DNA from: Clostridium sp. 12(A)
GTDB taxonomy: Bacteria > Bacillota > Clostridia > Lachnospirales > Lachnospiraceae
DNA: 64,000 bases
Direction: 5' to 3'
Assembly (NCBI GenBank): GCA_000526575.1
Contig: JAGI01000003.1
Coordinates: forward strand, 186,001-250,000
Shown here: piece by piece, positions 40,716 to 53,971 of the stretch
Position numbering within the stretch: the stretch's first letter is position 1
How the letters are laid out: every line of letters begins with the position of its first letter
Notes under the pieces: generated by a model
The model's database searches: none
What the model was told of the DNA's origin: nothing
What the model saw: the letters and a program-made list of their open reading frames with translations, nothing else
Program-made: the position numbers and the translations under genes

Positions 40716-42149
40716 TCAAGTCCCGCAAAATGTTTTATAATGACAAAACTCAGGTGCAGGCAACGCTGAGAACTCCTCTTGTTCAGGTGTATATCTATAA
40801 GGATTTTTCAAGGCATCGAGAAGCTTGTGCATTTTGCTTAAATCCCCCTCATTAGCAGCAGCCAGTGCCTCTTCAACCCTATGGTTTCTTGGAATAATAG
40901 CAGGGTTATGACTTTTCATAAGCTCTTTGCTTTCATCCTTTGAAATTGATTGTCGGCTAAGACGTGCTTGCCACCTCTCATGCCACTGATGATAATCAGG
41001 GCTGGAAAACAAATTCTGACCATCGTCTTTATCAAATGTTAAAGATTGGAATATCTTCGTATAATCCGCTTTGTGCTGTTGCATTAGTTGTAAAATGTCT
41101 TTAATCAAAGATAGATCTTCTACTTCGTTATTATACAAACCCAACTTGGCACGCATTCCAGATAGCCAATGTTCTTGATATAAGCTCTCAAATTTTGCAA
41201 GTTCTTCTTGTGCAATGCTAACAGCCTTATTCTTATCATCATGTAAAAAAGGTAGCAAGGTTTCTGCAAAACGTGCTAAATTCCAAACCGCCATCTTTGC
41301 CTGATTTTCATAGGAATAGCGGCCGTTAGTATCAATAGAACTAAAAACAGTAGTTGGGTCATAAACGTCCATAAATGCGCAGGGACCATAATCAATGGTT
41401 TCACCGCTAATGGCCATATTATCTGTATTCATTACACCGTGAATAAATCCAACCAATTGCCATTTAGAAATCAGAGATGCCTGCCGTTTAATCACTTCTC
41501 TTAACAGTTCCAGATATTTGTTTTCTAATGTAGCGATGCTTGGAAAATGGCGTTTGATAGTATAATCGGCTAAGCAGCGAACATCCTCCGATGTTCCAAA
41601 ATGTGAAGCATATTCAAAGGTTCCTACTCGAATATGGCTTGCTGCAACACGTGTTAAGACCGCTCCAGGCAGATATTCTTCGCGCGTTATAGTTTCTCCC
41701 GTTGTTACGACCGCTAAGCTCCTTGTTGTGGGAATACCTAATGCATGCATTGCTTCACTAATGATATATTCCCGAAGCATGGGGCCTAAAGCGGCTCGCC
41801 CGTCACCCCCCCTGGAGTATGGGGTTCGTCCAGAGCCTTTTAGTTGAATATCAAAACGTTCTCCTGAATCTGTTATTTGCTCACCAAGCAGAATGGCACG
41901 TCCGTCTCCTAACATGGTAAAATATCCAAACTGATGCCCGGCATATGCTTGTGCCAAAGGTTCGGCACCTTTTGGAATTTCATTTCCTGCAAAGACATCC
42001 AATTGCAGAGGTACTCCCAAAGAAGACGCCAATGGATGATTAAAAATAATAAGCTTTGGGGCACGCACAGTGGTTGGAGATTGATGCGTGTAGAAAATCT
42101 TCGGCAATTTAGTATAGCTGTTATTAAAATTCCATTTTCCCTGTTCCAT
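40716..42149 (-). CDS. selO: SelO/YdiU pseudokinase-fold AMPylase
   Basis: 477 aa, normal length. SelO proteins transfer AMP from ATP to Ser/Thr/Tyr of target proteins and are linked to oxidative stress in E. coli. Typical segments are [76 protein letters not shown] and [10 protein letters not shown] Cys near the C-terminus (KTFCGT) corresponds to the redox Cys/Sec position of the family. An AAGGAGGA site precedes the start. Confidence 0.94.
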
Positions 42150-42475
42150 TTTTTCATCCTCCTTAAGAAACAGTATATAAAACTCTCTTAGTATCTACCT
42201 ATTTCATTTTTTTATGTTTCAAATGCAGGGTTAACTTATCCATTTAGACAAGCTTTAAGACGAGTAGATTTAACTGAGTCTTATTGTTATGAATATTAAG
42301 CATATCTATAAGAATAAATAGAAATAAAATGAAACATCTTATACTCTACTTTAATATAGTTAATAGTAGATCTAGGATTAAAAAATAATTATAATTTTTT
42401 ATACTTATAGATATAGGTATTGGGGCTTATTTTTTATGTTTATAGCCTTTAAAGAAATATTTTATTGAGAACATT
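42150..42475. other. AT-rich intergenic region
   Basis: About 325 bases upstream of selO with no coding frame. It contains short AT inverted repeats (for example AAAAAATAATTATAATTTTTTAT near 42385) only. No promoter stands out clearly. Confidence 0.4.
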
Positions 42476-42613
42476 CTAATAGAGCAGAAAAATAAAATCT
42501 GGAGAATAATCAACTGCAACGACTATCGCTGCTTGTGAGCTTCCTAATTGTTCAGCCTCCATAACCAGAATTTCTAATTGATAGCTTACATTATGATCCA
42601 TACCAGTCCCCAT
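42476..42613 (-). pseudogene. Possible gene remnant (45 codons)
   Basis: A short minus-strand frame coding for MGTGMDHNVSYQLEIL...AEQLGSSQAAIVVAVDYSPDFIFLLY has protein-like composition but no ribosome site and no neighbours. It may be the tail of a decayed gene. I do not recognise it. 42614-42848 around it holds nothing clear. Confidence 0.3.
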
Positions 42614-42848
42614 GACCGAATTAAAACAATCACTACTAGCTTAAGCAAATACTACACTTTAATTTCTTACCAAAAGCTTCCTACTATGCTTACAATAGCT
42701 TCTGATCCGGAAGCTGCATATGAAGGTATGTTACAAGATGTATATTATTAGTTGGTACCCAGTACCATTCTTTGTTTTTCAAAAAGGGGAATGTCAACAG
42801 AATTCTTATAAAACATATGTATATGGTTACAAAGGTACCAATTTCTAT

Positions 42849-42893
42849 AAAAAAGGTTCGGGAACCTCTGTAAATACTAGGCATTCCCGAATC
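42849..42893 (-). terminator. Terminator, probably guaA's original one
   Basis: TTCGGGAA / TTCCCGAA stem (42884-42891 with 42857-42864) plus outer pairs, followed by six T on the minus strand. It lies immediately after the displaced copy of the guaA 3' end, so it most likely terminated guaA before the island inserted. Confidence 0.82.
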
Positions 42894-42898
42894 TGTTC

Positions 42899-42911
42899 AT
42901 TATTCAAACTC
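42899..42911 (-). repeat. Island attachment site, distal copy
   Basis: 13-bp sequence GAGTTTGAATAAT (minus strand), identical to the last codons, stop and next base of guaA at 52382-52394. It marks the left edge of the integrated island. Confidence 0.85.
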
Positions 42912-43174
42912 CTAATTTCAAACTTATTTTGTAGTATTTAAAGTGCTTTTATTTGTTTTTTTCAGTTCATTTATGCACTGTTTTTCCATATTATCTCAGT
43001 TTCCCTGAAAAAGTATTGTCATTTTATTTTCATACATATATAAATCTATTATTAATATATTTTAACTATACAGAAAAAAACAATATCATTAAAGCCACTC
43101 TGGAACCTTAAGAATTTTCATATCCTAATTATTTTAAAATCTACATTGAACTATTTCACTATAATTTGGTGATT

Positions 43175-43864
43175 TTAATTAAAACTTACTCCAATAGCTT
43201 TCAAAAACTTCTTTATATCAGTGATAGCTCCATTCTTACTTTTATGTGATTCAATATAATAATCGTCTACAATAATAGGCGCAAAAAATGGCCCACCATT
43301 GATATGTTTATTTTCTTTATTTATCAAATATCTTTTGCTTCCCGTTTTAAAAGGGATTTTTTGCTCAAATTCTATTTCTTGCATAATCAAATACTCAAAA
43401 ATTTTCCTATAAAACATTTTTACCGAGTTTGCTTCAATTCTGTTTCCTTCGATCTCAATTGAAAGCTTATTATCAGCACCTTCTTTCGTTTCTATTTCAT
43501 CCAAATCGACTTCCACTTTTTCAATCTTTTTCTTCAAAATCTGTTTAACTTCTTCTGATACAGTTGCATCATTATCAACATTCTCTCGAATAATATCAAG
43601 CATTTCCTTTTGTTTATTAATAATCATAGCCGTGACAAAATTATTTTCATCTTTATAATATTCTGGGGTATAGAAATTTTGTGGCTTCTTATATAGTATA
43701 AAGAAAAATAAAATTACAATCATTATAGGAAAGGAAATAACATACCAAATAAATATGCTTTGAATATTTTCTGGTAAAAATTTAATAACAACTGTTCCTG
43801 CAACTTCTGCAAGTGATGCAAATATCGAAATTATTCCTAATGGATTATCTTTCTTCTTATCCAT
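43175..43864 (-). CDS. Two-helix membrane protein beside the R-M system
   Basis: 229 aa from ATG 43864 (AAAGGAGTG). Two transmembrane helices lie at about 10-30 (LGIISIFASLAEVAGTVVIKFL) and 38-58 (IWYVISFPIMIVILFFFIL), then a helical linker and a C-terminal globular domain (about 130-229: KMFYRKIFEYLIMQEIEF...KTGSKRYLINKENKHINGGPFFAPIIVDDYYIESHKSKNGAITDIKKFLKAIG). That domain looks conserved-type but I cannot name it. It is last on the strand after the restriction genes, ~170 bases away. A role in defence is only a guess from location. Confidence 0.65.
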   Translation of the reverse strand: MDKKKDNPLGIISIFASLAEVAGTVVIKFLPENIQSIFIWYVISFPIMIVILFFFILYKKPQNFYTPEYYKDENNFVTAMIINKQKEMLDIIRENVDNDATVSEEVKQILKKKIEKVEVDLDEIETKEGADNKLSIEIEGNRIEANSVKMFYRKIFEYLIMQEIEFEQKIPFKTGSKRYLINKENKHINGGPFFAPIIVDDYYIESHKSKNGAITDIKKFLKAIGVSFN

Positions 43865-44033
43865 GTTATACACTCCTTTATTTTTGCTTATTATTGTTGA
43901 TATATTTCCACACCTATTAAAATAATGCAAAGGTAATATTATATTTGCATTACCTCATTTGTTTTTATTATGAACACTCTTTTATTATTACGGACTAATT
44001 GAATTCTTTATTTTCTTCAGCATTGCTATAGTT

Positions 44034-45921
44034 TTACTCTTTTTTTGTCTCATATAGCGACAAATCTTCTACTACCATCAGCATGTCATCTGGGCACGTA
44101 TCATAAATATTTTTATTCTCTATTAATGCTTGTGAAATAATCAAATCAATTTCCTGTTTCCATTCAGGTCCACCTTTGTCAGTTTTTGCTTCAAAGCAAA
44201 TATTGAATAATTTTAAAAATCTGGATGGATTAACTTCATTAAACTTAAACATGTATTGAAAGAATCTTGAAAATTGTTTTAGTGTAAATGGAACTATTTT
44301 TAATGCCATTTTTTCATCATCTTTGTTATACCATACACCTATTCTAAATGTTTCGGCAGTATTCGAGTCAACCTTATTAGCAATAAAAACTCCATATACA
44401 GGCTTTTTATTACTCATTACAAGATCTGCAACATGTCTTCTAACTGGCTCCCCTTCCATAGCCTCTTGCCTTGAATTAGTTGACATGGTTACTTCAACCA
44501 CAATTATGTAATCACTAAATTCAAAAATCATATCTGGCCCACCGCCTGGTGCCGTACCAACAGGTAAATAATCTTGATCAATATTAAACCCTCGAGCTTC
44601 ATATGGCTTATTTATAGTGTGATTAATTGCTAAAAACGCTCTCCATAACGTCCATTCTAAATAGGCTGCTGCTTCTGATTTTGGAACTTTAATGATGTAA
44701 TCTTCATCTAGTTCTTTCTCTTTTCCATTATTCGCTATCAACAAATTCATATACTCGAATATTTCTTGCCATTCGCTAACCTGCCTTTTTGCATATTGTT
44801 CCTCCTTGAATTTATCAATATCTTTTTTTAAATTATTGCGTACAATATTGATATTTTTTGCTGTATCTAAAGAAATATCCGGTATGGTATACTTCACTCC
44901 ATAATAATCAAGTTCTGAAACAAGATCCTGTAAAACCTGATTAGCCGTCTCAAAATTATCAGTTGGTAACTCGATACCATTACATAACTTTTTATATCTT
45001 TCTTTCAATGTTTCTGTACTAACAACATTTTTTACCAGTTCTACAGCAAGCGATTTATATTCTTGAACTAGGGTAAGACCACGACCTGATCTTTTAATTA
45101 TTCCCGTAGAAATCAAGTATCTCATATTCATATCTGCATAATCCTTAAAATTCACGCGCTGCTTTAAATATTTTTTCGAAATGTCATCAATTAATATACC
45201 ATCAAACTTTTTCTTATTTTGAGCATTTTTTCTATTTCCACGAATACTAAGAATCCGTTTGATAACCTGATTTATGTCATCCTTCGGTGTGCTTGTTTGG
45301 ACACATGTTGCAAATTCTATAAAATTAATCTTATATTCACCTGTAGCTTCTTCTAATTTCATCATAACCTTAAGAACCCACAACAAAGGCGAAAAGGTTG
45401 TATTGTCATCTAGTTTTTTCCATCGGGACAATTAATCCGCGTAAAAAACATTCTTGTTGAGCTGAAACAGTCTCTGCTGCATAAAAGGCTTGTCCGAGTG
45501 AAGTAATCCCATCTACAGGACCTAATTCATCTTGTGAAAACCCATCTTTAACAGTAACTTCTGGATACGTAAATCCATATTTATTAAACATCAATCTATA
45601 TTTACGAGTGATACTTGCGTCCGTATCTTTATTGAGATCTCCTCCAATTTCACCAGTTCTATATAATAGTTCCTTAAATGCAACCTGATCAGCTGGGTCA
45701 CGTAGTCTTCCAACTAAATTTGATTCAACATATACTTTAAATCCACTTGGAATTCTCCATGGATTTCTCACTCCGGTATTACCAATCAACCAAATTTCAA
45801 TTGGATTAACCACTATTCTTATTTTTTCTACTATTTTTTCACCATCAACGGTCTTTATCTTTTTTTGCTCTTTTACCTGATATGTATTTTCATCGATCTG
45901 TATTATTTCTGCCTTCGCCAT
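44034..45921 (-). pseudogene. AlwI-family type IIS restriction endonuclease, split by a frameshift
   Basis: Two overlapping frames together make one AlwI/N.BstNBI-like enzyme of about 630 aa. The first (45921-45406, 171 aa: NTGVRNPWRIPSGFKVY...KYGFTYPEV...ITSLGQAFY...ECFLRGLIVPME) is the N-terminal recognition part. The second (45431-44034) carries LDDNTTFSPLLWVLKVM..., the EWTLWRAFLAINH helix and the PD-(D/E)xK site GGGPDMIFEFSDYIIVVEVT. The frames join exactly if one A is removed from the six-A run (six T at 45414-45419). AlwI relatives cut GGATC or similar sites; specificity here is unknown. It is either inactive, phase-variable, or expressed by slippage. Confidence 0.82.
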
Positions 45922-47059
45922 CGTTATACCCCACAAAAATATATTCTTGTACATTATTACGAGTAGTATTTGTTCTTGTTCCAAAGCTATAAGTATATTC
46001 CACAGGAATAACTTCAACATTATCTTTGTATTTTTTAATTAATTCCACCATGTCACCCATGGATGGTAAACTATTTGATGAATATGATACGATTAAAATT
46101 GAATTTTTATATCTTTTAAAGATTTTATCAAAAGCATCTGAAGCTCCATCTTTTGTTGAAAAAGGAGTTGGATATGACTTGAACTTTTTTGTTTTAGTTT
46201 CTTCTTGAATTTCAACACCCTGCCAATCTCTTGCTAATCCTTCTACAAAGTGATATCTACGCACATATTCGTTATCAGACTTCGGAGTATAGTAAGGCGG
46301 ATCAATATACACTAAATCTGCCTTAACTTTCAGTTTCATTGAATCTTCATTGTAGGATTTGTTATGCTTTTTATTGCTAAACACGGCTTCATTTATTGTA
46401 ATTACAGCCTCTAAAAACTGTTCTTCAAATGACTTTTTTAAATCTTTTCTTCCATCGTCATATCTATCTCCTACATATGTAAATATCCCACGCGGTCTTT
46501 TTTTTGTACACGCTCTAATCAAAGCCTCCATTGCAATTGCATGTTTATACTTATTATCAATCAGCTTCAGATTGTTCCTTACAATATCTATAAATAAATT
46601 GTCTTCGTCTGAAAAATAAATACTTTTAAACTTATCTTGAACAAAACTATCCATATTCTCACTAGGTAGTAAAAGCTTTTTTGCCTCACTAATCGGTAAA
46701 ATTACCGTATTATTCTCAATTAAAGCTCGAGTCTTGATAGCGCTCATCGTCATATAATCATTACTTATAACTCTTTTATCATGTGATTTATACATATAGC
46801 TTACCACACCCGACCCCGAAAAAAGATCAAGTACTGTTGTAAATTCAAATCTTGATGATGCCATCCAAATAAAATCTAATAATTTTCTTTTTGATCCCAT
46901 ATATCTGGTCGTAGGAAATTTATTAATCTGATTTTCTATTAATTCTTTATTTTGTATAAGTTCTGACAATGATGTCTTCTCCTCTTCGTTTATCTCCACG
47001 ACTATTAATGTTTCTCCTTGTCGGTATAATTTCAATATTATAATTACCATATAGTTCAT
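45890..47059 (-). CDS. Adenine-specific DNA methyltransferase (D12 class), second of the pair
   Basis: 389 aa if read from 47059; the true start may be further in, because this end overlaps the first methylase by over 100 bases (an AAGGAG lies near 47013). SAM-binding motif DLFSGSGVVSY, MGSKRKLL at the N-terminus and catalytic DPPYY mark an N6-adenine methylase. Type IIS sites are asymmetric, so two methylases, one per strand, are expected. Its end overlaps the start of the endonuclease frame. Confidence 0.88.
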   Translation of the reverse strand: MNYMVIIILKLYRQGETLIVVEINEEEKTSLSELIQNKELIENQINKFPTTRYMGSKRKLLDFIWMASSRFEFTTVLDLFSGSGVVSYMYKSHDKRVISNDYMTMSAIKTRALIENNTVILPISEAKKLLLPSENMDSFVQDKFKSIYFSDEDNLFIDIVRNNLKLIDNKYKHAIAMEALIRACTKKRPRGIFTYVGDRYDDGRKDLKKSFEEQFLEAVITINEAVFSNKKHNKSYNEDSMKLKVKADLVYIDPPYYTPKSDNEYVRRYHFVEGLARDWQGVEIQEETKTKKFKSYPTPFSTKDGASDAFDKIFKRYKNSILIVSYSSNSLPSMGDMVELIKKYKDNVEVIPVEYTYSFGTRTNTTRNNVQEYIFVGYNDGEGRNNTDR

Positions 47060-47969
47060 GAACTAACGGATGATTGGAATTAGTTAGCATCACATAACAC
47101 CCCTTATCCACTAACTCTTCAACCTTTTTTGCAAGCTTTCTTTGATCTTCTTCATAAAATTGTTCTTTGGTATACCTTTTAAAATCGGAATTCTCCGAAA
47201 TCGGAACATATGGCGGATCTAAAAAAACAAAATCCCCCTTGTTAACATATTTATCTAATACTTGTAGATAATCTCCACATATGATCGCAGTATTTTTTAA
47301 TAACTTTGATGCCTTTCTAATTTTCTCTTCGTTACAAATATTTGGATTTTCATATTTTCCAAAAGGTGTATTAAAATAACCTTTTTTATTCAGCCTATAC
47401 AGGCCGTTAAAACAAGTTCTATTCAGAAAAATCATTCTTGCAGCAGCATCAATAGGATTAATATCTTTCCAATCTTTTGACCTAACTTCATAAAACATTT
47501 CTTCTTCATTTCTATACTTTTTCAAAGCATTTATAACTTTTTCGCAATTTTCTGCGACCTGTTTATACAAATTAATTAGTTCGGGATTTGAGTCAGCGAT
47601 TAATGAATTCTTAGCTCCTAAATAAAAAAATAAAGCACCTCCTCCAATAAACGGTTCTACATACCTTTCATAGTTTCGGGGCATTCTCTGAACAATATCT
47701 CCTAACATCTGTGTTTTCCCACCAGCCCACTTTAATATAGGAGTTGTAAATCCTTCTGTTTCTCTATTAACATTTATATCTACTTTTTCTTTTACATATA
47801 CTCCAGATTTTATTCGATGATCTACTGGCTTCTCAACCTCTTTCGGGATCGCCCATGCTTTTCCGAATCGTACTGCTCCAGTTATTTTATTCTCATTACA
47901 AAGCGTCTGTACTCTTCTAACTGATAAACCCCATTTATCAGCAACTTCTTTAATTGTTATGTATTCCAT
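46947..47969 (-). CDS. Dam-type adenine methyltransferase with N-terminal HTH
   Basis: 340 aa. Residues 1-50 are an excisionase/MerR-like helix-turn-helix (YITIKEVADKWGLSVRRVQTLCNENKITGAVRFGKAWAIPKE). Residues 75-340 are a Dam/D12 methylase with KWAGGKTQML, VEPFIGGGALFFYLG and catalytic DPPYVPIS. It protects one strand of the restriction site. The fused HTH could let the enzyme control its own promoter. First gene of the R-M operon, with a strong promoter upstream. Confidence 0.92.
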   Translation of the reverse strand: MEYITIKEVADKWGLSVRRVQTLCNENKITGAVRFGKAWAIPKEVEKPVDHRIKSGVYVKEKVDINVNRETEGFTTPILKWAGGKTQMLGDIVQRMPRNYERYVEPFIGGGALFFYLGAKNSLIADSNPELINLYKQVAENCEKVINALKKYRNEEEMFYEVRSKDWKDINPIDAAARMIFLNRTCFNGLYRLNKKGYFNTPFGKYENPNICNEEKIRKASKLLKNTAIICGDYLQVLDKYVNKGDFVFLDPPYVPISENSDFKRYTKEQFYEEDQRKLAKKVEELVDKGCYVMLTNSNHPLVHELYGNYNIEIIPTRRNINSRGDKRRGEDIIVRTYTK

Positions 47970-48005
47970 TTTTGTACTCCTTACATAATTGAAATCACCA
48001 TTAAA

Positions 48006-48034
48006 ATTATAAGCGTTATTGCGCCGAATATCAA
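48006..48034 (-). promoter_or_regulatory. Promoter of the R-M operon
   Basis: TTGATA (48034-48029), 17 bp, TATAAT (48011-48006), then AAGGAGT before the methylase start. Confidence 0.82.
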
Positions 48035-48189
48035 CTTAATTATAAATTCTTTTTTAGTTCTTACCGTGTCAAGAGCATCAAAGTTACCTTCAAAGCTTTT
48101 ATACTACTTACTTTTTAGATTTTTTTTAATAATGTACCTAATCAGTCCCATTAATATCCTGGTTTTTCTTATACTACCTCTCAAACTTC

Positions 48190-48719
48190 TTCTCCCAACA
48201 TTCCCTTTCCCAATTATTGACCTCCGCCTCATAGAGACTAACTTCCCCTGAAAACTTAATATAATCCTTGCCGAATATTCCGATATCCTGTTGCTTCAAT
48301 CGAAGACGATAACTGCAATTCCTAACTGCTCCTATGCATAGCCGCAATATTCAATTTCCTCTCTAGCACCCTCCTTTCCTTTGCCTTAAACACTGGTTGA
48401 AGTCCATCATATCGTGCCTTTAACGGATGAATTTCCTGCTTATCAAATGTCTTCATCTGCTGAACCACTCGCATAAATCGCTGCCTTTGTGTTTCAATTT
48501 ACTCATATCTTGCCGTATTTCTATGAAATACTGGCTTTGGCGTTAACAAAAACTTGCTAATAACTTCCTTCAAAAGAACTGTATAGCTGCTTCCACAATG
48601 CTTTTAAAGAAATAAGCAAATCCCCATATGACTTGATATAATCCTTTACCTTTTCCGAAATCTTCTCCTGCTTAATTATTATAATTTCTGCATTCACAAC
48701 TCCAGTCAATAATACTTCA
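48190..48719 (-). pseudogene. Multiply broken relic, unknown mobile-element gene
   Basis: Minus-strand fragments in different frames with protein-like, charged helical composition: ISEKVKDYIKSYGDLLISLKALWKQLY (near 48590-48680), FMRVVQQMKTFDKQEIHPLKARYDG (near 48400-48490) and FGKDYIKFSGEVSLYEAEVNNWERE (near 48200-48290). Stops and shifts separate them. They look like the remains of one coiled-coil-rich protein, perhaps a mobilisation/relaxase C-terminus. Identity is uncertain. Confidence 0.4.
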
Positions 48720-49298
48720 TCAACTTATAATTCCACTGCTTTTATTTTCCGTTTTGGGAACTGTGTTAACAACGTGCACCTCCATTCGTTGATATGACTT
48801 GCTGATAGTTACGGTAGTCTTCTCAAAATGAAATCTGATTTACTTAATGCAAGAAGTTTCCCCTTTCTCGGATTCCAATCCAATTGAGCATTCATTTGAT
48901 TATGGATGGTTTTGAGATATATTGGAGATTACTTATCTCCATTGTCTTTTTTAATCCTCATAATATCATTCTGTCATTGCACAACATCGCAAGACATGAT
49001 GTCCCGAAGCTTTTTATTTTTGAAGTAAGGAATAATCTTTTTACTTATTACATGCTTTTTTCTCAAAATTAATTTCGTTTCAGACACAGTTCAATATCTT
49101 TTAAATAAAGATCCTCAAAAGTTTCAAAGTTCATATCAAGTCTCTGCTCTTTTTGAAGTTTGAAGGCCCTCTCCTAGTCCTGAGCATCACTTTTCTTGGC
49201 AAAACTCTCTTTGTAGCCTGTTTTCGCTCCCCTGTCCAATCCTTAAAGTAAACCCTAACTTCCCATGTCCCAGACTTACTATTCCTATTAACTGACAG
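48720..49298 (-). pseudogene. Decayed tyrosine integrase
   Basis: Frameshifted remnants of a phage/ICE-type integrase follow the small excisionase-like gene: an N-terminal arm-binding segment SGTWEVRVYFKDWTGERKQATKR, then AQDWERAF-like and LDMNFETFEDLYLKDIE, a core-binding segment KKHVISKKIIPYFKNKKLRDI with MRIKKDNGDK, and TVTISKSYQRMEV. The catalytic R-H-R-Y part is missing. This is the element's own integrase, now dead. Confidence 0.72.
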
Positions 49299-49505
49299 TT
49301 AGCTCACCTCCCTTTTGTGCTCTTTGCTCGTACCTCTATAATTTTTCTCATACAAGTACTTAAGGCTTACCTTGCCAAACATAAAGATAAAACCACTTCG
49401 TTTTAATTGCTGTTTCATTTCCCTAATCACCTTGTAGGCATTGGATTGGGAAACTCTTAGTTCCTTTGCCACTTCTTCTGCTGCAATAAATAATTCTTTG
49501 TCCAT
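49299..49505 (-). CDS. Small excisionase-like HTH protein
   Basis: 68 aa. One helix-turn-helix (FIAAEEVAKELRVSQSNAYKVIREMKQQLKRSGFIFMFGKVSLKYLYEKNYRG) of the type found directly upstream of ICE integrases in Clostridia, where it acts as a directionality factor or regulator. Its stop abuts the integrase remnant. Intact, but its partner is broken. Confidence 0.72.
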   Translation of the reverse strand: MDKELFIAAEEVAKELRVSQSNAYKVIREMKQQLKRSGFIFMFGKVSLKYLYEKNYRGTSKEHKREVS

Positions 49506-49869
49506 TTGTTATTCTCCGTACTTTTATTATATTTCCGTTAATTTATAAACTGAATTATTTTTAATACGTAAGCTCATAAGCGAACTGTCAATAATTTATT
49601 AAAACTTAATTTCACTTCTGAACTGCTCGTAATATACTGCTTACCATAAAGTGAAGCCTTAAATATACACGGGAAAGGATTTTCTATCATGAAAAAAGAA
49701 ATGATCGGAAAAGGCATTAAAATGCTTAGTTGATAAATGGTATGACTGTAAAGAAATTTATAGATCTTGATACAGCTGAAAAATATATATTAAAAAATAT
49801 TTTGGAAGATTTGTAAGAATGGTTGAATGGAATTAGTTTTCTGACGATGTAAATGAATACTCTTATACG

Positions 49870-50428
49870 AATGAGAACAACGCCTCCGATATTTCAGACA
49901 GATTGTCGGATTAACACAAATGGAATTAGCAGAAAAGTGTGATCTAAGCGATTCTACCGTTCATAATTATTAACTTGGCAATCGTTTCCTGATTATGATA
50001 CAATTCATATATTATCTGCTGTATTAGAAGTAGTTAGTCTGGTATTTTCCAGAACATGCAATGCGAGTATACCTCATGCTATGCATAAATATTAGTTTGA
50101 CTTAGAAAACTATTATCTTATGGTACTCGTTGAAATTGATGGAAAAATGAATCTAACATTTGATACAAAGAAAGCAGAAAATCCGATTCAATCTCCTTCT
50201 TCCATTATGGAGCAGTTACTTCGTGCCTGGTCAAGATTTCATCAGATGTTTGAAGCTGGTGAAATAGATGAACAAACTTATCTGTTGTGGCAGATGAAAT
50301 TTCCAAACTACCCAACAGGCAGTCCAGACGATATATTTGGAGCTAAGTATAAAGGTGATGAAAACATCGACCAAAGAATGGCGGATGCTAAGAGGATGTA
50401 TCTAAAGACAAAGGTGGATAGAAAATAA
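49870..50428 (+). pseudogene. XRE-family regulator pseudogene
   Basis: The N-terminal HTH reads YFRQIVGLTQMELAEKCDLSDSTVHNY, then a TAA replaces an expected Glu codon and one base is missing before FPDYDTIHILSAVLEV. The C-terminal part (50120-50428: LVEIDGKMNLTFDTKKAENPIQSPSSIMEQLLRAWSRFHQMFEAGEIDEQTYLLWQMKFPNYPTG) remains open and looks like a short ORF, but matches the usual tail of these regulators. 49506-49869 holds only short broken frames. Confidence 0.62.
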
Positions 50429-50514
50429 GTTTATCCTTATAAATTGAAGTTACATAAATATATATAATGTATTCTCAAAATTTACATGTGCTATTGTAAA
50501 GGAGGAGTATACAA

Positions 50515-51463
50515 ATGAGTGATAAAACAAATGCTTTAAAAGAAAGTAGAAATATAAAAGAAACTTTCAGTAACATAGTAATGGTCCAGGAAATACAGCT
50601 TCAAATTTTGCTGATAAAGCAAAAGGAATTGTTGTTAAATCCAAAGATTCTGTGATTAATGCAGTAGATGCAAATGGAAATGGTGAAATTGATATTGAAG
50701 ATTTTATTATTCTTGGATTGCGTACACCTGGCATCCGTGCAGACCGAAGTGATTTTTTACAAAAGGAGTTAATGAAAAATTACCCTCAAGAAGTCATTGA
50801 TGATTTAATAATTTATAATCCAGCACATGAAAAAATACCAGCAAGTGAAATAGATAAAATTGTAGACAAAGTAATTAAGTTTAAAAGAAACTGCTTTACA
50901 GGAATCTATGCTGCTCTAGGGACAACTGGTGATTTTGCGATGGCAGCAATTATCCCGACTGATATTGCCCAATACTATGGCTATATGTTAAGAGCTACGC
51001 AGAAACTTATGAATCTACATGGATTTCCTGAATTAGACACTTCAGAAAAGGTCATAAGTTTGACTCTGAAATAATGAACTTTATAATAATTTGCTTAGGA
51101 ATTATGTACGAAGTACAAGGCACAAGTACTGCTTTGAAGGCAATGGCTACTGCATTAGGAAAAGGTGCTGAAAAGAAACTCTTACGGACTGCATTAACAA
51201 AAGGTACTATATATCCTATTGTAAAAAGTGTCTCGAAATGGTTTGGAGTCAACATGACAAAACAGGTATTTGCTGGCTTATTCAGAAAAGCGTTTCCAGT
51301 TGTTGGTGGGTTAATCTGTGGTCGAATTACATTTTTGTCCTTTAAACCTTGTTGTGACAAATTGAAAGAATCATTACAAGATACTTTATTAAGTAATCCA
51401 GATCATCATATGTCAGAGGATGAAACAATTATTAGTAATGATATTGAAATATGTGAAGAATAG
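50515..51463 (+). pseudogene. EcsC-like protein gene with EF-hand-type loop, broken by frameshifts
   Basis: Starts well (GGAGGAG, ATG at 50515, MSDKTNALKES). A frameshift near 50575 leads into NTASNFADKAKGIVVKSKDSVINAVDANGNGEIDIEDFIILGL, with a D-x-N-x-N-G-x-I-D-x-E-D calcium-type loop. Then FTGIYAALGTTGDFAMAAIIPTDIAQYYGYMLRATQKLMNLHG, an EcsC-like signature. A lost A near 51045 shifts frame again into KFDSEIMNFIIICLGIMYEVQG ... GGLICGRITFLSFKPCCDKLKESL. The full product would be about 310 aa. Function unknown; probably dead. Confidence 0.62.
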
Positions 51464-51689
51464 TAATTTAAGTTCGATGGATTCACTGATATAGAGCATT
51501 TTCAATGTTATCGTAAATTGAGAGGTAACAATGAAACTCATTACTCATCGAAAAGCAAATATCTAATCTCTAAATCAAATTTTTTTGATATATAATGTTT
51601 GATATAAAACTGATTACTAATATGATGTCCTTTTTTAATAAAGACTTAATCTATGATATTTGTGATAATACTATCACTGGAGGATTCCT

Positions 51690-52265
51690 ATGAATGATAT
51701 TTATGCGCACATTGTTGGTAATGCAGAAAGTAATAAAAAACTAACATTATCTGCTAAGGAATTGAACTATAGTACCAAGCAAATTAACAGATATTGTAAA
51801 TCTAAATTTAATCGCACTTATAAAGAATTGCAGTTTTTATTAATATCAGCCAGTATTCTAAGAAATATTATGAATAAGCAAGATATGAAAACCATTGCTA
51901 ACCTATTATTTGATGGTAATGTCTCTCAGCTATATGCGTACGTCAATAGATTTTCTGATATTCCTCCCTGTAAAATTATATTGACTGAAGGAGGTCATCG
52001 TATGACACAATGGCAAAAAAAGATATTTGAAGCTCAAGTTATTACCAAATTAGCAACATCTACTACAAATTTAACTTTAAAACAACTAGGTGCTCCAAGA
52101 TGTATTATACAAAGCTTGCGTTTAGCTGGTTATGATATCATATCTGTTCCAGGCAGATACAATAGTGGTTACAATTTAAGTAAATCATCTAAATCAAATT
52201 GTATAAACTGGATTAATAATATTAGAGTTAATAGATACGGTCTTAATCCCGATTTCACATTTTAA
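51690..52265 (+). CDS. Unknown protein with AraC-like helices, next to attachment site
   Basis: 191 aa, intact, with a GGAGGA ribosome site. The N-terminal half has an HTH-like stretch (LTLSAKELNYSTKQINRYCKSKFNRTYKELQFLLISA) reminiscent of AraC-type DNA binding; the second half is basic (KKIFEAQVITKLATSTTNLTLKQLGAPRCIIQSLRLAGYDII). It is the last gene before the attachment site at guaA, a place where recombination accessory genes often sit. I cannot name it. Confidence 0.55.
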   Translation: MNDIYAHIVGNAESNKKLTLSAKELNYSTKQINRYCKSKFNRTYKELQFLLISASILRNIMNKQDMKTIANLLFDGNVSQLYAYVNRFSDIPPCKIILTEGGHRMTQWQKKIFEAQVITKLATSTTNLTLKQLGAPRCIIQSLRLAGYDIISVPGRYNSGYNLSKSSKSNCINWINNIRVNRYGLNPDFTF

Positions 52266-52335
52266 CATTATTACTTTTAATTATTAAAGGGTTTTTACTA
52301 AAAAGTATTGCCATTTGATAGTCACGAAGCATAAC

Positions 52336-52378
52336 AAGAGCCTACGAACCCGCATAAATAATGGGTTTGTAGACTCTT
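52336..52378 (-). terminator. Island-supplied hairpin after guaA
   Basis: Sixteen-bp stem with two imperfect pairs (52363-52378 with 52336-52351), three bases after the attachment repeat. It replaces the original guaA terminator, now at 42849-42893. The T-tract is weak. Confidence 0.65.
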
Positions 52379-52381
52379 ATA

Positions 52382-52394
52382 ATTATTCAAACTC
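52382..52394 (-). repeat. Island attachment site within the guaA 3' end
   Basis: GAGTTTGAATAAT on the minus strand: Glu-Phe-Glu-stop of guaA plus one base. Exact copy of 42899-42911. The crossover keeps the guaA coding sequence intact. Confidence 0.85.
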
Positions 52395-53924
52395 AATAGT
52401 AGCCGGCGGCTTCCCAGTGCAATCATACAGCACCCGGTTTACGCCTTTCACTTCATTTACAATTCTTCTGGTCACGGTACCAAGAACCTCCCAAGGAAGC
52501 TCTGCAGATTCCGCTGTCATAAAGTCAGAAGTCAATACCGCACGAAGTGCAATCGCATAATCGTAAGTTCTCTCATCTCCCATACATCCAACAGAACGCA
52601 TGTTAGTAAGAGCTGCAAAGTACTGTCCTAATCCTTTATCAACGCCAGCTTTTGCAATCTCTTCTCTATAGATTGCATCCGCTTCCTGAACAATCTTCAC
52701 CTTTTCAGGAGTTACTTCACCAATAATACGAACACCAAGTCCTGGACCTGGGAATGGCTGGCGGTAAACCAGGTATTCCGGAATATCAAGTTCCAGACCT
52801 GCTCTTCTAACCTCATCTTTAAACAGAAGTCTTAAGGGTTCAATGATCTCTTTGAAATCCACATGCTCTGGCAGACCGCCTACGTTGTGGTGAGATTTAA
52901 TTACAGCGGATTTTCCAAGTCCTGATTCAATCACGTCAGGATAGATGGTTCCCTGTACAAAGAAATCTACAGCGCCAATCTTTTTTGCTTCATCTTCGAA
53001 TACACGGATGAATTCTTCGCCGATGATCTTACGCTTTCTCTCTGGATCTTCCACGCCCTTTAACTTGTCGTAGAAACGATCCTGAGCGTTGACACGGATA
53101 AAGTTTAAGTCATAGTGGCCTTCTGGTCCGAATACGGCTTCTACTTCATCTCCTTCGTTCTTACGGAGTAAGCCGTGGTCAACGAATACGCAGGTAAGCT
53201 GCTTGCCTACTGCTTTGGAAAGCATAACAGCAGCTACGGAAGAATCGACACCACCGGATAAAGCACAAAGTACTTTACCATCTCCAACTTTTTCACGGAT
53301 AGCCTGAATAGAAGTTTCTACAAAGGAGTCCATCTTCCAGTCACCGGAACACTTACAGACGTTGTAAACAAAGTTAGAAAGCATGGTAGTACCTTCCTGG
53401 GTGTGCATAACCTCAGGGTGGAACTGTACGGCATAGAGGCCGCGTTCTTCGCATTCCATGCCTGCAACTGGGCAGACGGGAGTGTGAGCGGTGACTTTAA
53501 AGCCTTCTGGTGCTTTTTCTATATAATCGGTATGACTCATCCAGCAGATGGTCTTGGAGCTGACATTTTTTAAGATTTTGCTGTCGGCTTCTACGTCAAC
53601 TTCAGTCTTGCCGTATTCACTGACAGGAGCTGTGTTTACCTTGCCGCCCAGCATATGTGCCATTAACTGAGAACCGTAGCAGATTCCCAGAATCGGGATT
53701 CCCAATTCAAAGAGCTCCTTTTCACAGCGAGGTGACTCTTCCTTATATGCACTGTTTGGACCACCTGTAAATATAATTCCTTTGGGATTTATTTCCTTAA
53801 TCTTGTCCAGTGACAGCGTGTGGGGATGAACCTCACAGTAAACATTGCATTCTCTGACTCTTCTGGCAATCAGCTGGTTGTACTGTCCGCCGAAATCCAG
53901 AACGATAATCATTTCTCTTTTCAC
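52383..53924 (-). CDS. guaA: GMP synthase (glutamine-hydrolysing)
   Basis: 513 aa starting at GTG 53924 with AGGAGG seven bases upstream; a longer frame to 53954 lacks a site. Converts XMP to GMP. Class I glutamine amidotransferase domain ([16 protein letters not shown] with the Cys; HPEV with the His), then ATP pyrophosphatase with the P-loop [13 protein letters not shown], and a C-terminal dimerisation domain ending [18 protein letters not shown]. It hosts the island attachment site at its very end. Confidence 0.97.
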
Positions 53925-53971
53925 GGGTATTCCTCCTAATTTCATCTTTGACAAATAGCGCTTTGGGTTAC

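Follow-up and report, generated by a model that had tools for sequence, protein, structure and literature searches.

Origin of the repeated guaA end

The locus analysed here raises the question of how the end of a housekeeping gene came to be present twice, each copy with a hairpin of its own behind it, and which of the two hairpins might have been the original neighbour of the gene. The gene is guaA, coding for a glutamine-hydrolysing GMP synthase, and it is embedded in a stretch of 64,000 nucleotides of Clostridium sp. 12(A) (contig JAGI01000003.1, positions 186,001 to 250,000), hereafter the window. The answer proposed is that the DNA enclosed by the two copies is a decayed integrative mobilizable element (IME), referred to as element A, that a Tn916-class tyrosine integrase would have inserted into the last codons of guaA, at a site already held by an older element (element B); the probability of this reading is put at about 0.86. 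The edges of the island, the element family, the tandem order, the arm-repeat pairs at both ends of a related element and an integrase scrap behind the displaced hairpin can be read directly from the nucleotide sequences compared. Since guaA lies on the minus strand of the window, the orientation of the guaA strand is used throughout the description of the locus. The target gene, the two attachment (att) cores and the two hairpins are as follows:

52383..53936, minus strand: guaA, the target gene, intact (NCBIfam NF000848, 1.8e-232).
52382..52394, minus strand: attL core, a copy of GAGTTTGAATAAT made of the last codons and the stop of guaA (repeat search).
42899..42911, minus strand: attR core, a further copy of GAGTTTGAATAAT (repeat search).
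52334..52380, minus strand: hairpin A, putatively element-borne and now next to guaA, of a family common to an element of a relative (folding and comparison).
42849..42893, minus strand: hairpin B, displaced, the probable att end of the older element (folding and comparison).

The 13-mer GAGTTTGAATAAT was absent from all 100 dinucleotide shuffles in the repeat search of the window, and the whole genome (4,605,255 bases) contains two copies of it only, both at this locus, so that the possibility, raised in the first-pass annotation, of its being common genome-wide is disposed of. The TAA stop of guaA falls inside the second copy (52382-52394), the direct repeat thus including the end of the target gene, as in IMEs. 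The offset between the two copies, 9,483 bp, corresponds to the length of the island, whose G+C content is 26-35% in nine out of ten 1-kb windows between 43 and 53 kb, most of the window being at about 40-48%; the last of the ten (0.385) includes guaA. The same annotation had proposed a precise, site-specific and AT-rich island with integrase remains at the guaA 3' end, and it was right on each of these points: the 13-mer lies at both edges and integrase pieces with stops are located at 48747-49298.

Two probable successive insertions behind guaA

Hairpin A, behind the guaA-proximal core, has a folding energy of -25.0 kcal/mol (z -5.9, none of 200 shuffles as good), and hairpin B, directly 3' of the distal core, of -15.9 kcal/mol (z -2.5, 4 of 200 shuffles as good). 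No Rfam match was found up to E = 1 in the region 42000-53000, hence neither belongs to a known RNA family by this search. Their history was approached through 23 same-genus genomes (designated G with a number), 20 of which yielded a guaA region, G005, G011 and G019 having no full guaA match. The regions available behind guaA are of about 19.7 kb, with the exception of those of G018, G022, G016, G001 and G003 (506, 848, 3,867, 8,033 and 11,656 bases, respectively).

Three hairpin types recur in these genomes. Hairpin A is next to guaA in the window and in G013; hairpin C is next to guaA in G021 and G023 and behind the second core in G013; hairpin B is directly 3' of guaA in five of the 20 regions (G004, G008, G014, G015 and G017) and displaced in the window and in G021. 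In all five genomes a repeat pair with an 11-bp period follows hairpin B; two of them, G004 and G017, have a gene for a 456-aa tyrosine integrase, convergent with guaA, directly behind the hairpin and the pair. The corresponding remains in the window, and the flank beyond them, are:

42829..42840, minus strand: remains of the element B arm pair (G021 has this pair intact in its flank, as TGACACCCAAATGACACCC).
42644..42808, plus strand: remnant of the element B integrase C-terminus, with one stop (54.5% and 58% identity over 55 residues).
40716..42149, minus strand: selO, in the flank common to G021.

Compared with the G004 and G017 integrases, the remnant gave E values of 6e-14 and 3e-16 (4e-09 for its open part alone). 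Because of the repeat pair in five relatives, the integrase in two of them and the remnant in the window, hairpin B most plausibly represents the att end of an older element that targeted guaA. The comparison with G021, whose guaA is 99% identical to that of the window, points to the same order of events: an unrelated 19.4-kb island, with a match to a type I methyltransferase model, is located between guaA and a second core, behind which come hairpin B, TGACACCCAAATGACACCC as an intact pair and then the flank with selO, about 95% identical to that of the window over 1.8 kb. Since the order from hairpin B to selO is identical in the two genomes, two different islands appear to have displaced one and the same B end in front of selO.

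It had been suggested that 42849-42893 is the pre-insertion guaA terminator and that in relatives lacking the island guaA would be followed directly by it. The first part stands insofar as hairpins of this family do lie directly behind guaA in five of the 20 relatives; what is not supported is the native origin, the hairpin being more probably the att end of an older element, nor was the expected form guaA-hairpin B-selO encountered among the 20. In these genomes selO was found only in G021, behind the 19.4-kb island, and in G007, 1.7 kb behind guaA and inverted relative to the window and G021; from the latter inversion it follows that the flank has been rearranged among close relatives. As a minor observation, low-complexity repeats of the GCATTC/TTCACATTC type are present between hairpin B and the next flank in G008 and G015, and a similar ORF (open reading frame) is located behind the second hairpin B of G014.

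Element A and its relative in G013

Element A contains the following features:

51690..52265, plus strand: 191-aa ORF, no Pfam or NCBIfam family.
49730..50425, plus strand: relic related to a 275-aa protein encoded by the G013 element (57.5% identity, 266 aligned columns).
49302..49505, minus strand: xis-like gene (ICEBs1 excisionase model, 7.4e-10, below the model cut-off; 78% identical to the xis of the G013 element).
48747..49298, minus strand: integrase relic with stops, in scattered pieces matching residues 1-141 and 195-242 of the G013 integrase.
48147..48724, minus strand: MobA/MobL relaxase relic, directly adjoining the integrase relic (comparison with the G013 element).
46947..47969, minus strand: ORF for the N-terminal part of an adenine methyltransferase (12-286 of the 643 positions of a type II methyltransferase model).
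45890..47059, minus strand: ORF for the C-terminal part of an adenine methyltransferase (277-643 in this model).
44034..46020, minus strand: AlwI-type restriction endonuclease, in two overlapping ORFs (model positions 2-122 and 136-560).
43175..43885, minus strand: 236-aa ORF, no Pfam, NCBIfam or PADLOC family.

When the island was compared with the ORFs of 19 other same-genus regions, only one integrase matched it; a second comparison added a weak piece extending to position 48630 and to residue 277 of the G013 integrase. In G013 an element of 18.07 kb is located between guaA and a second core copy. Its integrase gene is open and encodes a protein with Arm-DNA-bind_4, SAM_3 and Phage_integrase domains, i.e., an integrase with an arm-binding domain, of which the window retains a relic only. 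The G013 element further harbors genes for a NikA-like protein, a CHC2 zinc-finger primase, a DUF5906 protein, an actin-like protein and a MobA/MobL relaxase, followed by cargo; the NikA-like, primase and relaxase genes are open. Both elements have the same hairpin type and arm repeats at the guaA end, and the sequences preceding the distal core (AACTTTGAAATTAG in G013, AAGTTTGAAATTAG in the window) are nearly identical, whereas the AlwI-type restriction-modification cargo of the window island differs from that of G013.

In the window, neither the tyrosine integrase (fragments with stops only) nor the relaxase (48147-48724, open in G013) is intact, while both att ends have been kept and an open xis-like ORF remains. 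No intact copy of the element A integrase was found in the whole genome, the other integrase matches being just 26-29% identical. Since its integrase and relaxase are relics beside their G013 counterparts, the island is, on sequence grounds, a decayed IME resembling a cis-mobilizable element (CIME), that is, one with both att ends preserved and its own recombination and mobilization genes lost, and it would no longer be able to move by itself.

Two observations concern the cargo. The AlwI-type endonuclease of the window is split, whereas the methyltransferase ORFs span nearly the whole model, perhaps allowing methylation without restriction. Near the distal end of the G013 element (L052:13479-18230), a DNA methylase-like protein is encoded together with a 975-aa UvrD helicase carrying helix-turn-helix and PD-(D/E)XK domains, and the two might constitute a defence pair.

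Arm repeats and point of exchange

At either end of element A a decayed repeat pair can be recognized:

52307..52324, minus strand: decayed arm pair TGACTAT-CAAA-TGGCAAT, 11-bp period, guaA end (intact as TGACAATCAAATGACAAT in G013).
43015..43032, minus strand: decayed arm pair TGAAAAT-AAAA-TGACAAT, distal end (an intact pair is found at the matching place in G013).

In G013 the pair TGACAATNAAATGACAAT, with its TGACAAT repeats, is present once at the guaA end and a second time some 130 bp ahead of the distal stop. G021 has TGGTACT twice at the guaA end and TGCTACT/TGGTACT, a near copy, at the distal end, and G006 contains the intact pair TGACACCCAAATGACACCC before the distal core. These 11-bp repeats look like arm sites, at which the integrase is predicted to bind. 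In lambda-like attP, arm sites lie on both sides of the core; arms on both sides, as in a Tn916-class att, are present in G013, nearly preserved in G021 and decayed in the window, and by analogy this layout would be the one expected of a lambda-like attP.

The distal ends of the window island and of the G013 element are alike up to the core, and are then followed by hairpin B in the former versus hairpin C in the latter. Since different hairpins follow the same distal end, the crossover is placed inside the core and 5' to the hairpins, each of which would be brought in by its own element. For the same reason a crossover in the hairpin loop, which resembles a core with inverted arms, was rejected.

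On these grounds the following course of events can be proposed. Element B would have entered the guaA end earlier, leaving behind an att end (core, hairpin and arm remains) and the integrase scrap. The integrase of a newcomer would join attP and the guaA end within the common core GAGTTTGAATAA, so that guaA would keep its reading frame and its stop, behind which the incoming DNA would place a hairpin able to terminate guaA transcription and then a pair of integrase arm sites. In this way element A would have pushed hairpin B, formerly adjacent to guaA, 9.5 kb away, and every new insertion would provide guaA with a fresh hairpin while displacing the previous one. The hairpins are thus predicted to terminate transcription; where the integrase gene is convergent (G004 and G017), one hairpin could stop both transcripts. 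Should this be correct, the hairpin, the 11-bp pair and the core would mark each guaA insertion, whether decayed or intact, and the order of a stack could be read without any integrase. It would also suggest a low-cost insertion behind a housekeeping gene, the elements themselves supplying the guaA terminator.

Survey of guaA 3' ends

The generality of this arrangement was assessed on 109 guaA regions (the window, 20 same-genus regions, nine further relatives and 79 loci from genome_contigs, the loci being designated L with a number). A stop and enough sequence were available in 103 of them, and 96, the window included, were long enough for the period count; L059 was left out, being on the same contig as G017. 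The set is biased towards close relatives of the window guaA and was dereplicated for the pairing test only.

Exact repeats of at least 7 nt, 40-105 nt behind the guaA stop, had a period of 11 in 43 out of 96 guaA 3' ends (shuffle mean 1.15), whereas every other period from 7 to 20 occurred in two regions at most; at a control position, 500-565 nt behind the stop, a period of 11 was found in 2 of 82. When the minimum repeat length is lowered to 6 nt, the number of regions rises to 51. In these, the hairpin centre lies at a median of 26.5 nt after the stop (quartiles 25.5-27.0) and the first arm at 57-59 nt (quartiles), the full hairpin geometry being present in 39; among these 39 there are 22 different 7-mer arm labels, several being shifted registers or close variants of one another. 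A separate class (L114, L119 and L108) has its arms at 44-46 nt, about one helical turn nearer. The stems differ between elements and yet their pairing is kept: the 24 dereplicated hairpins have on average 14.54 standard pairs over 19 positions, as opposed to 11.78 in recombined halves taken from different elements (largest value 12.79 of 500).

A scan of 2,488,441 bases for the composite of hairpin and arm pair disclosed 43 composites, some of which are one site fetched twice, and none in the reversed sequence. A guaA-type core is located in front of 31 of the 33 distinct composites listed, the other two (L048 and L057) being near-identical unrelated sequences. Copies away from guaA are found in G021, G006, G013, L086 and L114, and L111 has a second full copy. 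As most of the DNA scanned had been fetched by guaA, the scan shows an association with guaA and not genome-wide specificity. The att composite is general at the guaA 3' end.

A further role of the hairpin can be put forward tentatively, and is rather doubtful: it might be a required architectural part of the att site, bending or extruding between core and arms, in addition to being a terminator for guaA and the convergent integrase. The distance at which its centre is held (about 26.5 nt), the first arm at 57-59 nt, the varying stems with preserved pairing and the class one turn nearer speak in favour of it; against it, the hairpin may simply fill the space between core and arm, and the 11-bp pair of locus L238 (see below) has no hairpin. 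If true, a single DNA segment would act in the recombination complex while also shielding the host gene, the same DNA being transcription signal and recombination structure at once, and this would explain the repeated stacking of unrelated elements on guaA.

Alternative explanations

According to a first alternative, which is unlikely, a single island was inserted once and 42849-42893 is the ancestral guaA terminator, with plain chromosome behind it. The position of the hairpin B family directly behind guaA in five relatives, and behind the distal core in G021 and in the window, would fit with this; however, a native terminator without element sequence behind guaA is not what these genomes contain, arm repeats being present in five out of five, the integrase gene in two out of five and the integrase scrap in the window. 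Furthermore, G015 has an additional hairpin (recognized by eye) about 1.5 kb behind hairpin B, adjoining a flank shared with G002, where guaA is followed by a different hairpin without repeats and then by that same flank.

It is still less credible that the hairpin centred some 26 nt downstream of guaA belongs to the host and has been maintained by host selection, only the repeats coming from the elements. A hairpin is indeed found at that place in 15 of the 45 regions without exact repeats, but these 15 include the window and others with decayed repeats, and in several other repeat-free regions the hairpins are spread anywhere from 21 to 40 nt behind the stop; moreover, the hairpin sequence travels with the element family, type A being shared by the window and G013, type C by G021, G023 and G013, and type B by five genomes and displaced twice. 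Finally, that the 13-bp repeat and the hairpins are due to chance or low complexity, with the island edges elsewhere, is hardly conceivable even in an AT-rich region, where short two-copy repeats often arise by chance, since GAGTTTGAATAAT occurs at two places only in 4.6 Mb and the same edges bound the G013 relative and the different island of G021, comparisons that refute this explanation.

Some observations do weigh against an element A inserted in front of the att end of an element B. Hairpin B might after all be a native terminator with the element B integrase merely behind it, and the plain order guaA-hairpin B-selO without an island was found in none of the 20 same-genus regions. A simple terminator scan listed neither hairpin of the window, their loops exceeding the limit of the scan, and at least four T in the 8 nt after the hairpin are present in only 27 of the 51 repeat-bearing regions; of the same 51, 12 fall outside the hairpin geometry. 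G014 shows no arm pair distally in its insert of 4.2 kb. When the 55 regions with a length of 5 kb or more are considered, integrases of this class are found in 10 out of 19 with the full composite and also in 5 out of 36 without it; these five comprise L081, L098, L109 and L126, which have the repeat pair with a shifted hairpin, and G010, with a decayed pair.

Relation to known systems

In lambda attL and attP, the core is followed by the H' bend and the P' arm sites. The guaA composite would be analogous in its order (core, middle site, arm sites) and similar in scale, with the difference that the middle site is here a hairpin with a variable stem, for which no bending protein is known. Accretion in tandem at a single att site has reportedly occurred in ICESt1-related elements. 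The CIMEs in composites of S. salivarius keep attL and attR, have lost recombination and mobilization genes and are stacked on one gene end (PMC5704250, PMC7563491); the present stack differs in being read from successive displaced hairpins and in having both layers decayed.

IMEs and integrative and conjugative elements (ICEs) at the guaA 3' end, in streptococci and others, have a tyrosine integrase and repeats limited to the gene end (PMC4701971, PMC5704250), and a 15-bp guaA repeat is on record (PMC10383233). The present locus is alike in integrase type, target and extent of the repeats, whereas an att hairpin and 11-bp arm pairs at a fixed distance are not described in the portions of these three sources consulted. 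Elements that insert in guaA, repeats confined to the end of the gene and the stacking of elements are already known (PMC4701971, PMC5704250, PMC7563491, PMC10383233). In Tn916, the terminator T1, near one end of the element, insulates the element genes from a host promoter (PMC11658703); the position of a terminator near one element end is similar, whereas the predicted terminator hairpin described here lies between core and arm repeats, at a fixed gene end, and would serve the target gene as well. No description of the att composite of hairpin and arms was found in the literature searched, subscription papers lying outside its scope, and no paper contained any of three search strings for the hairpin centre.

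Occurrence beyond guaA

The composite was not seen at other integrases of the same genome, in five stretches of 9-10 kb. In one locus (L238:4581-4600; G000:C2, at about 431.6 kb), an 11-bp-period pair without a hairpin, TGGTGTAAAAATGGTGTAA, is located between a 380-aa tyrosine integrase gene and a gene resembling pyrE by eye; perhaps an equivalent arm layout is present here at the 5' end of a gene. In viral_contigs, relatives of the two integrases were retrieved at four and three loci only; by eye, L221-L223 combine a dyad and an 11-bp pair with the core-like GARTNNGARTGA, and L225 is a guaA with hairpin B. The hairpin centre is not a genome-wide repeat, a possibility rejected on the basis of three near matches in the genome versus one for the reversed control. 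The centre CCAGTATTTATGCGGGTTT occurs exactly in 79 IMG/VR viral contigs (L139-L217), and its reversed letters in none of them; short repeats often flank it in the non-coding parts of phage contigs, as judged by eye and with no control.

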